A stretch of 64,000 nt of DNA from Streptomyces longwoodensis (lineage in GTDB: Bacteria; Actinomycetota; Actinomycetes; Streptomycetales; Streptomycetaceae), in the NCBI RefSeq assembly GCF_001514125.1, contig NZ_KQ948562.1:108229-172228 (forward strand), read 5' to 3'. Numbering within the stretch: position 1 is the stretch's first letter; every line of letters starts with the position of its first letter. A model generated the notes under the pieces. The model ran no database searches, was not told the DNA's origin, and saw nothing but the letters and a program-made list of their open reading frames with translations. This document shows positions 14,143-17,241 of this stretch, one piece after another. The position numbers and the translations under genes were made by a program.

Positions 14143-15153
14143 TCAGCCCGCCCGGTGGACCACCAGGTCGCACAGCTCCACCAGCGCCCGCTTCGCGTCG
14201 CACTCCGTCAGCGGGGCCAGCGCGGCCCGCGCCTCCTCGGCGTAGCGCACGGTGTCGCGTCGCGCCTGCTCCAGCGCGGGGTGCGCCCGCAGCGCGGCCA
14301 GCGCCTCGGCGTGCCGCGCGTCGTCGCTCAGGTCGGAGTCAAGGAGCTCGCACAGCGCGACGTCCTCGGGGTGCCCCAGCCGGGCCGCCCGCTCGCGCAG
14401 CCGCAGCACCGGCAGCGTGGGGATGCCCTCGCGCAGGTCCGTGCCCGGCGTCTTGCCCGACTCGTGCGAGTCCGAGGCAACGTCCAGCACGTCGTCCGCG
14501 AGCTGGAAGGCGACGCCCAGCCGTTCGCCGTACTGGGTGAGGACGTCCACGACCGTCTCGTCGGCGCCGGACATCATCGCCCCGAACCGGCACGAGACCG
14601 CGACCAGCGACCCGGTCTTGCCGCCGAGGACATCGAGGTAGTGCTCCACGGGATCCCGGCCGTCGGTCGGCCCGGCGGTCTCCAGGATCTGACCGGTCAC
14701 GAGCCGTTCGAACGCGAGCGCCTGCACCCGCACCGCCTCGGGCCCGAGGTCCGCGAGGATCTGCGAGGCACGCGCGAACAGGAAGTCGCCGGTCAGCACG
14801 GCCACCGAGTTGCCCCAGCGGGTGTTCGCGCTGTCCACCCCGCGCCGCACGTGGGCCTCGTCCATGACGTCGTCGTGGTACAGCGTGGCCAGGTGGGTCA
14901 GCTCGACGACGACGGCCGACGGCACGACCCCGGGCGCGTACGGGTCGCCGAACTGCGCCGCGAGCATCACGAGCAGCGGCCGGAACCGCTTCCCGCCCGC
15001 CCGCACGAGGTGCTGCGCGGCCTGCGTGATGAAAGGGACCTCGCTCTTGGTGGCCTCGAGCAAGCCTTCCTCGACAGCCGCCAATCCGCGCTGGACATCG
15101 GCTTCCAGAGCCTGGTCCCGCACGCTCAGCCCGAACGGCCCGACGACGGTCAC
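14143..15153 (-). CDS. Polyprenyl diphosphate synthase (long-chain, trans)
   Basis: A 336-residue trans-prenyltransferase. Both aspartate-rich motifs are present: LYHDDVMDEAHVRRG (first, chain-binding) and FQLADDVLDVASD (second). GGKRFRPLLVML is the upstream isopentenyl diphosphate site. It adds isopentenyl diphosphate units to an allylic primer; family members of this length make C35-C50 chains. In a menaquinone-using actinomycete it most likely makes the MK-9 type side chain. Start GTG 15153 has AGGAG upstream. Chain length cannot be fixed from the residues before the first motif without modelling. Confidence 0.92.
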   Translation of the reverse strand: MTVVGPFGLSVRDQALEADVQRGLAAVEEGLLEATKSEVPFITQAAQHLVRAGGKRFRPLLVMLAAQFGDPYAPGVVPSAVVVELTHLATLYHDDVMDEAHVRRGVDSANTRWGNSVAVLTGDFLFARASQILADLGPEAVRVQALAFERLVTGQILETAGPTDGRDPVEHYLDVLGGKTGSLVAVSCRFGAMMSGADETVVDVLTQYGERLGVAFQLADDVLDVASDSHESGKTPGTDLREGIPTLPVLRLRERAARLGHPEDVALCELLDSDLSDDARHAEALAALRAHPALEQARRDTVRYAEEARAALAPLTECDAKRALVELCDLVVHRAG

Positions 15154-15582
15154 GAGGGATCTCCTGTCTGCTGGTGTCTGCTGGCGCTCACGCGGTTTGT
15201 CGATAGGTCGCTGCCATCACTCAAGTCAGCGTATCCGGTCACCTTTCGATCACCGAGAGGCCCCGGGGCTGCCAGACAGGCGGAAACAGACATTTATCCA
15301 CTTACCGGAAAATAGCAATTTCGATCACGCGGCCACATTCATTAGCCACTAGTTGAGTCTATTGCCCGATTTGCCACTCTTGTCGACGGTGGTGAGTTGG
15401 CTCACTTCCGCCCCTCGGGCCCCTTCCGTCCGACGCCGCGTCTACTTCCTTCCCGGCTCGGCGAGTTGATGCTTGGCAACTGCAAAGGATCAAGCACGCC
15501 AAAAGCCTCAAACAAAGATCAATAGGCCCGAGCTGTGAATCCGCTACTTGTTCCGGACATGTGCTCTCGCATACGTTCCCGG
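15154..15582. other. Non-coding region upstream of the polyprenyl synthase and the riboswitch
   Basis: This 429-bp stretch has no credible gene and is noticeably richer in A and T than its surroundings, especially 15290-15370 and 15470-15540. It must carry the promoter of the minus-strand polyprenyl synthase gene and the promoter of the plus-strand riboswitch transcript. A Crp-type dyad is at 15392-15405. No strong small-RNA structure was recognised. Confidence 0.6.
15392..15405. promoter_or_regulatory. Crp-like dyad GTGA-N6-TCAC
   Basis: GTGAGTTGGCTCAC is a perfect inverted repeat with the half-site order and spacing of cyclic-AMP receptor protein sites (TGTGA-N6-TCACA), lacking only the outermost T/A pair. 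It lies about 190 bases before the riboswitch. Crp is known to act in Streptomyces germination and development; binding here is inferred. Confidence 0.4.
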
Positions 15583-15855
15583 CCGTCGGGCGGACGCCGA
15601 ATCCTGCCACCGCCCGGTCCCACCCATCGACGACCACTCACGCACGGCAGGAGCGGGGGACCCAGGTAGAACGCCGACGCAAACGTCGTACACAGTACGC
15701 AGTGATCAGTGCCGAGCACCCAGTACCCGGCACCGGTCACGCAGTGCGACGCACCGCGCCGGCTTGGGGTGAAGCCGCGTCGCCGTCCCCACGGCGGCCG
15801 GCCGGGCACCTCCCAGCCCGAACCCGACAGCTCACCTCGCAGGCGACGGAGAGGA
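15583..15855 (+). ncRNA. Cyclic di-AMP riboswitch (ydaO/yuaA leader)
   Basis: The leader of the SLT-domain gene carries the conserved blocks of the ydaO class in order: GCCGAATCC (15596-15604), GGGGGACCCAGGTA (15655-15668), TTGGGGTGAAGCCG (15764-15777), CACCTCCCAGCCCGAACCCG (15807-15826) and CAGCTCACCTCGCAGGCG (15828-15845). CCGTCG at 15583-15588 can pair with CGACGG at 15844-15849 to close the outer helix. The ribosome-binding site (GGAGAGGA, 15848-15855) sits on the 3' edge. In Streptomyces this class controls cell-wall hydrolase genes such as rpfA, with ligand binding turning expression down. Boundaries are approximate by a few bases. Confidence 0.85.
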
Positions 15856-15863
15856 ACTTCCCC

Positions 15864-16349
15864 ATGTCCGCAAACGCTCAGCCCCGTCGTGCCCGCATGA
15901 GCCGTCTCAAGCGCACCCTCGTCCTCGCCGGCACCGGCGCGGCCGTGCTCGCCGTCCCGCTGGTCGGTGCGACCAGCGCCTCCGCGGCCACGACCGCCAC
16001 CACCGCCTCGACCACGGTCGCCGGTTACCCGAACAACCTCGACGGCTGGATCCGCGAGTCCCTCGCGATCATGGCCCAGAAGGGCATCCCGGGCAGCTAC
16101 GACGGCATCTACCGCAACATCATGCGCGAGTCCTCCGGCAACCCCAACGCCATCAACCTCTGGGACTCCAACGCCGTCGCGGGCACCCCCTCCAAGGGCC
16201 TGCTCCAGGTGATCGACCCGACCTTCGCCGCCTACCACGTCGACGGCACCTCGTGGGACCCGTACGACCCGGTCGCCAACATCACCGCCGCCTGCAACTA
16301 CGCGGCCGACCGCTACGGCTCGATCGACAACGTGTTCGGCGCGTACTAG
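15864..16349 (+). CDS. Secreted SLT (lytic transglycosylase-like) domain protein
   Basis: A 161-residue precursor. The signal peptide covers residues ~12-43 (RLKRTLVLAGTGAAVLAV... ASAA). The mature domain is a short transglycosylase/lysozyme-like fold: IYRNIMRESSGNPNAIN carries the catalytic glutamate (RES), and KGLLQVIDPTF plus YDPVANITAACNYAADRYGS complete the pattern. It would cut or remodel peptidoglycan outside the membrane. The start ATG 15864 is eight bases after GGAGAGGA. A c-di-AMP riboswitch precedes it, which ties it to osmotic and cell-wall signalling. A hairpin terminator follows. Confidence 0.9.
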   Translation: MSANAQPRRARMSRLKRTLVLAGTGAAVLAVPLVGATSASAATTATTASTTVAGYPNNLDGWIRESLAIMAQKGIPGSYDGIYRNIMRESSGNPNAINLWDSNAVAGTPSKGLLQVIDPTFAAYHVDGTSWDPYDPVANITAACNYAADRYGSIDNVFGAY

Positions 16350-16354
16350 GCCTC

Positions 16355-16378
16355 CCTGCGGCAGCCCTGCCGGAGGGC
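16355..16378 (+). terminator. Terminator after the SLT-domain gene
   Basis: CCCTGCGGCA (16355-16364) pairs with TGCCGGAGGG (16369-16378) with one mismatch and a GCCC loop, six bases after the stop codon. A second small GC hairpin (GCGCG/CGCGC, 16378-16392) follows and may act from the opposite side for the HAD gene. Confidence 0.65.
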
Positions 16379-16416
16379 GCGCGAGCAGCGCGCGCACGGG
16401 TCGGAGCGCCCGCGGG

Positions 16417-17241
16417 TCAGAGGAAGAGACGTTCGAGGACGACGGCCACGCCGTCGTCCTCGTTCGACGTCGTCACCTCGTCGGCCACCGCCTTGAGCTC
16501 CGGATGGGCGTTGGCCATCGCGACCCCGTACCCGGCCCAGTCGAACATCGGCACGTCGTTGGGCATGTCCCCGAAGGCGACCGTGTCGGCCGGGCCGACC
16601 CCGAGGTGCTCGGCGGCCAGTGCCAGTCCCGTCGCCTTGGTGATCCCGCACGGCTGGAGCTCCACCGTACCCGGCCCCGACATGGTGACCGTGGCCAGCG
16701 AGCCCACCACCGAGCGGGCCGTCGCCGCCAGCTCGTCGTCGGACAGGTCGGGGTGGCGCAGCAGCACCTTGCTGATCGGCGCGCACCACAGGTCGTCGCG
16801 CCGCTCGACCCGCAGGGCCGGCAGGGTCGGGTGCGGCATCCGGTAGCCCGGCTCGATGAGCGTCAGCCCGTCGACGCCGTCCTGGTCGACGGCGGCGTAC
16901 ACCTGGCCCACCTCGGCCTCGATCTTGCCCAGCGCGGTCTCCGCCAGCTCCCGGTCCAGGGTGACCGACCACAGCAGGCGATCGGTGCCGGCGTCGTACA
17001 GCTGCGCACCCTGTCCGCACACCGCGAGCCCCCTGCCGCGCAGGTGCTCCAGCAGCGGCCGCACCCGCGGAGCCGGCCGGCCGGTCACCACCAGGTGGCG
17101 GACGCCGGCGTCGGTGACGCGCGCCAGCGCGAGGAGCGACCGGTCGGAGAAGGTGTCGTCGCCGCGGAGCAGCGTTCCGTCCAGGTCGGTGGCGATGAGC
17201 GCGTACGCGGAGCGCCGGGCAGGGGTGAGGGGTGCGGCCAT
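16417..17241 (-). CDS. HAD-superfamily phosphatase of the Cof type
   Basis: A 274-residue protein. Motif I is LIATDLDGTLLRGDD (nucleophile Asp and general-acid Asp), motif II is HLVVTGRP and the C-terminal motif IV is VAFGDMPNDVPMFDWAG. A large cap domain lies between. Members of this subgroup dephosphorylate sugar phosphates, FMN/PLP or similar small molecules; specificity is not readable. Start ATG 17241 gives the expected N terminus. It is divergent from the fumarylacetoacetase gene. Confidence 0.9.
   Translation of the reverse strand: MAAPLTPARRSAYALIATDLDGTLLRGDDTFSDRSLLALARVTDAGVRHLVVTGRPAPRVRPLLEHLRGRGLAVCGQGAQLYDAGTDRLLWSVTLDRELAETALGKIEAEVGQVYAAVDQDGVDGLTLIEPGYRMPHPTLPALRVERRDDLWCAPISKVLLRHPDLSDDELAATARSVVGSLATVTMSGPGTVELQPCGITKATGLALAAEHLGVGPADTVAFGDMPNDVPMFDWAGYGVAMANAHPELKAVADEVTTSNEDDGVAVVLERLFL

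Follow-up and report, generated by a model that had tools for sequence, protein, structure and literature searches.

The window analysed here, a 64,000-nt stretch of Streptomyces longwoodensis DNA, carries on its forward strand (15864..16349) a gene for a secreted protein of 161 amino acids. Its N-terminus resembles a signal peptide, and residues 82-158 form an SLT transglycosylase domain (PF01464, E 1.7e-8); a phmmer search found no solved relative of the protein. On the upstream side, a polyprenyl synthetase gene (14143-15153, reverse strand) is transcribed away from the leader of the SLT gene, and on the downstream side a HAD hydrolase gene (16417-17241, reverse strand) faces it; as its neighbours are divergent or facing, the SLT gene is probably monocistronic. 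A sigma-70-like promoter, TTGTTC-N18-TACGTT (15548..15577, forward strand), lies in a block running from CTTGTTCC to GACATGTGCTCTCGCATACGTTCC that is near-identical in orthologous leaders; though conserved, it was not flagged by a generic sigma-70 promoter scan. The transcript is predicted to start at about 15584, at the helix that we call P0. Some 60-70 nt upstream of the promoter, near 15482-15494, stands a motif, GCAAAGGATCAAG, that is conserved in the SLT-gene leaders L009-L029 and could be a regulator site.

Between promoter and gene lies a leader that the earlier note had assigned to the ydaO class and bounded at 15583-15855. Inspection of the sequence and its relatives bears this out: the conserved blocks GCGGGGGACCCA (from 15653) and then TTGGGGTGAAGCC stand in the expected order on the forward strand, and the RF00379 blocks GGGGGAMCC, GGGGUGAA and GAACCCGNCAGCUNACC are all found. 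The covariance-model search that the same note had proposed as a check supports it: the match to RF00379 (c-di-AMP, ydaO/yuaA; cmscan, 701 bases) is significant (E 7.3e-7), though its 36.6 bits fall just below the gathering score of 38, and a covariance-model scan of the whole 64,000-nt window placed neither RF00379 nor any other family at gathering score. The score is low because two enlarged loops, that of P2 and the variable arm, lead the model to misplace helices P1 and P2; in the printed alignment it sets both helices about 30 nt too far 3', pairing bases near 15625-15650, and the original boundaries are the better placement. The P2 loop, which separates the two strands of P2, measures 37 nt against 6 nt in the Rfam consensus, and the variable arm 107 nt against a median of 44 nt in relatives by the same count. 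The Rfam model has no P0, and this accounts in part for the sub-cut-off scores of members like the present leader. A sub-threshold score could also mark a degenerate leader that has lost c-di-AMP binding, but we consider this very improbable, since every conserved block and helix is intact and kept in orthologues and the loop insertions account for the score. At the level of sequence, we regard it as confirmed that this is a genuine ydaO-type leader, with chance excluded and c-di-AMP as its presumed ligand.

Read 5' to 3' on the forward strand, the leader begins with the 5' strand of P0 (GTCGGGCGG, 15585..15593), which is complementary, with covariation, to 15610-15618. It is followed by the 5' strand of P1 (CGCC, 15595..15598), which belongs to the Rfam consensus and pairs with 15842-15845, and by that of P2 (TCCTGCC, 15602..15608). 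The 3' strand of P0 (CCGCCCGGT, 15610..15618) sits within the enlarged P2 loop, ahead of the P2 3' strand GGCAGGA (15646..15652). The 5' strand of the core helix, GCGGGG (15653..15658), pairs with CCTCGC (15835-15840) and leads into a conserved GGACCCA, after which the variable arm (15666..15767, about 100 nt) forms an imperfect hairpin; this arm contains repeat-like CAGTGA/CAGTGC/CAGTAC segments and tops the range of 31-107 nt measured among relatives. A further hairpin, GGGC-ACCTCCCA-GCCC (15804..15819), presents in its loop the pseudoknot 5' strand CTCC (15810-15813), the invariant block GAACCCGACAGCTCACCTCGCAGGCG (15820..15845) holds the 3' strands of the core helix and P1, and GGAGAGG (15848..15854) is both the Shine-Dalgarno sequence and the pseudoknot 3' strand. 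Standard pairs form at all 4 positions of P1, at 7 positions of P2 and at 6 of the core helix. The P1/tail region runs into the ribosome-binding site, as had been said of the 3' edge of the outer helix. A possible outer extension, CCGTCG (15583-15588) with CGACGG (15844-15849), overlaps P0 and P1 and is left out of this anatomy. Minimum free energy (MFE) folding of the whole leader (z -1.25) was uninformative, which is no surprise in an RNA that is GC-rich and contains pseudoknots.

The 8.36-Mb genome contains seven RF00379 sites including that of the window, all of them before cell-wall hydrolases (M23, M23, NlpC/P60, RpfA-type with LysM, LysM-M23, NlpC/P60 and SLT); the six others score 39 to 92 bits, and a gene with a diadenylate cyclase (DAC) domain is present. 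RF00379 sites occur in all 101 genomes sampled from the genus, mostly 3 to 8 per genome. That the class precedes rpfA and related genes in Streptomyces, as the earlier note stated, holds for this genome, whose seven sites include one of the rpfA type, and PF01464 in the downstream gene supports its placing of a ydaO-type leader before a short SLT-domain protein. The tally agrees with that of S. coelicolor, where, according to PMC10117811, which cites Haiser 2009 and St-Onge 2015 and 2017, seven cell-wall hydrolase genes, rpfA among them, have ydaO-like leaders.

The pairing between the hairpin loop and the 3' tail was examined in a set of about 220 related leaders. It covaries strongly: across 152 distinct loop/tail combinations, loops score 14.56 with their own tails, and exchanging the tails among loci lowers this to 12.40 (sd 0.18); here and below, helix scores are simple contiguous-pair scores, and the swap controls preserve base composition, not relatedness. 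Pseudoknot pairs within this genome include CCUUCC/GGAAGG, UCUCC/GGAGA, CUUCG/CGAAG, CUCA/UGAG and CUCC/GGAG. Against the case for the window itself, its own pseudoknot is short (4 contiguous pairs, CTCC 15810-15813 with GGAG 15848-15851), loop and tail are nearly invariant in its close orthologues, and most of the covariation is contributed by paralogues and by other genera. With start codons picked by a simple rule, not from annotation, 198 of 210 loci have one no more than 45 nt past the end of P1. Of these 198, 176 have a pseudoknot 3' strand that shares one nucleotide or more with the best Shine-Dalgarno match, and in 106 the shared stretch is at least 3 nt long. The tail of actinobacterial loci corresponds to the purine-rich sequence just ahead of the start codon, and orthologues of the SLT gene have the same leader with 26-28 nt between CAGCTNACC and the ATG. 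These comparisons of sequence suggest that the ribosome-binding site is covered by the pseudoknot of the switch itself. A pseudoknot is present in the crystallised ydaO RNA (PMC5393176), in whose printed sequence we read a hairpin loop, CUCCUUCG, that pairs with a 3' tail, CGAAGGAG. With RF00379 and its crystal structures 4QLM/4QLN the window leader shares all conserved blocks, the helices P1, P2 and core, and the hairpin-loop/3'-tail pseudoknot; it differs from them in its extra P0 helix, its arm of about 100 nt, a pseudoknot tail strand that doubles as Shine-Dalgarno sequence, and the lack of a terminator.

We consider it likely that the leader is a ydaO/yuaA c-di-AMP riboswitch of an actinobacterial, enlarged-P2 form, which acts on the translation initiation of a secreted muralytic protein with an SLT domain. 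Binding of c-di-AMP would stabilise P1 together with the pseudoknot between hairpin loop and tail; the tail strand GGAGAGG being the Shine-Dalgarno sequence, the ligand would hide the ribosome-binding site and turn the enzyme off, and at low c-di-AMP the site would be free and the SLT enzyme made. P0 would tie the 5' end of the transcript to the P2 loop and so brace the aptamer or, alternatively, compete with P1 and P2. The earlier note had allowed for translational control beside termination. The translational half of that proposal is supported by the tail lying on the Shine-Dalgarno sequence, but the termination half is not, as no terminator-like site, of the intrinsic kind by which B. subtilis-type ydaO switches act, was found in 15300-16460. 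With no terminator found, translation appears to be the chief point of control, not a second one beside termination, and shut-off through direct occlusion is the best-supported reading.

Published work on S. coelicolor rpfA counts against such a translational reading, its reported mechanism being premature termination (review PMC10117811) and ligand-dependent termination in vitro being cited for it in PMC9960051 and PMC10117811, whereas the anatomy of the window leader points to translation. c-di-AMP could accordingly end transcription early, in or just after the aptamer and without a canonical terminator, with translation secondary; a five-fold rise of the rpfA transcript in an S. venezuelae disA mutant, given in the same review, is in keeping with this. 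Such a course nevertheless seems improbable for the SLT gene. Besides the missing terminator-like site, the aptamer ends only about 10 nt ahead of the start codon, where its tail runs into the Shine-Dalgarno sequence, and a drop in transcript could also result from lost translation. PMC9960051 describes the S. coelicolor element as Rho-independent and without a canonical terminator, and measured no effect of c-di-AMP on the transcript in Corynebacterium glutamicum. There, the riboswitch of nlpC was measured to act on translation, and the authors speculated about a CTCC/GGAG pseudoknot with the ribosome-binding site; the nlpC and SLT leaders are alike in having a cell-wall enzyme as target and no terminator. 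The study concerns one locus, and its available part contains neither P0 nor a covariation test.

P0, formed by the 5' end of the leader (GTCGGGCGG, 15585-15593) and a strand in the P2 loop (CCGCCCGGT, 15610-15618), keeps its complementarity where its strands differ: GTCAGACG/CGTCTGAC (L012), TTCGAGCGG/CCGCTCGAA (L020) and CCGACCACC/GGTGGTCGG (L119), and also CCTCGCGCG/CGCGCGAGG (L194, Cellulomonas), CCCCCCGCG/CGCGGGGGG (L156, Marmoricola) and CGGTCCGC/GCGGACCG (L131, Nocardia). It is also found in the leaders of mycobacterial and nocardial relatives. Among 69 leaders whose P2 reads TCCTGC(C/T), 6.52 of 7 P0 positions pair, against 5.46 (sd 0.085) when strands are swapped. The helix follows the size of the P2 loop: loops of at least 22 nt (101 leaders) give a P0 score of 18.8 against 13.6 (sd 0.32) swapped, and loops of at most 20 nt (65 leaders) give 12.05 against 12.5 (sd 0.30), that is, P0 is absent from them. 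In a diverse, gapless alignment of 30 rows, 68.8% of P0 cells are paired against 51.3% (sd 2.6), and the covariation of 0.445 against 0.198 (sd 0.031) was reached by 0 of 500 shuffles, a control that carries the caveat of related sequences. For P0, and for P0 only, relatedness is answered by a slide control, in which the covariation peaks sharply at slide 0 and slid versions, with relatedness kept, do not exceed 0.242. The alignment underestimates P0 pairing because it fixes a single register, and some leaders, that of the window included, use the next.

Because P0 crosses both P1 and P2, it has to form a pseudoknot or else act as an anti-aptamer hairpin. The linkers are near-fixed, with 0-2 nt from P0 to P1 and 0-1 nt from P0 to P2 in most of the 69 leaders, which speaks for an H-type pseudoknot with P0 coaxially stacked on P2; most likely, P0 would brace the aptamer in this way. 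Alternatively, P0 may be a 5' anti-aptamer hairpin, the first to form during transcription, which parts the 5' strands of P1 and P2 until the ligand displaces it and so acts as the ON element of the expression platform. This role, which we rate as possible but somewhat doubtful, is favoured by the impossibility of holding P0 together with P1 and P2 in a nested fold, by the predicted transcript start at P0, and by the energies in the window, where the P0 hairpin by itself (-12.5 kcal/mol) beats P2 by itself (-10.5) and unconstrained MFE folding yields a P0-type helix without P1 or P2. Over 76 leaders, however, neither the fold with P0 nor that with P1/P2 has a clear advantage in energy (P0 is the favoured one in 55%, and the mean gap is 0.8 kcal/mol), the near-fixed linkers suit a stacked pseudoknot, and P0 is lacking from the short-P2 class of the same genome (L001, L002 and L003). 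An anti-aptamer P0 and an occluded ribosome-binding site could go together.

Already known were this class of riboswitch and its ligand, the link to cell-wall hydrolases in Streptomyces, the pseudoknot of the aptamer and, in one actinobacterium, an action on translation. As far as the open literature shows, two things are new: the pseudoknot covaries broadly with the ribosome-binding region, and a P0 helix divides the leaders of Actinobacteria into a long-P2 and a short-P2 architecture; we met no description of P0 there, in a coverage that stops short of Haiser 2009 and St-Onge 2015 and 2017. On balance, we favour the existence of two actinobacterial ydaO architectures, one of them double-pseudoknotted, with P0 reaching into the enlarged P2 loop and the 3' pseudoknot strand being the ribosome-binding site. 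If so, the double-pseudoknot aptamer would itself be the expression platform, at both ends. How terminator-less c-di-AMP switches act in Actinobacteria is unsettled in the literature, with termination proposed for rpfA and translation for nlpC, and the covariation of pseudoknot and ribosome-binding region across actinobacterial loci offers a simple, testable answer; P0, for its part, offers two clean mutants with which to probe the switch.

Leaders of the M23 class have a second purine-rich, Shine-Dalgarno-like stretch 3' of the pseudoknot strand, so that occlusion there would be partial, and in the M23 and NlpC/P60 leaders of the same genome (L001, L002, L003) the mechanism may differ between paralogues. 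In L172 (Geodermatophilaceae), 12 contiguous pairs join loop and tail (CCGTTCTTCCAC/GTGGAAGAACGG), by far the longest such complementarity.
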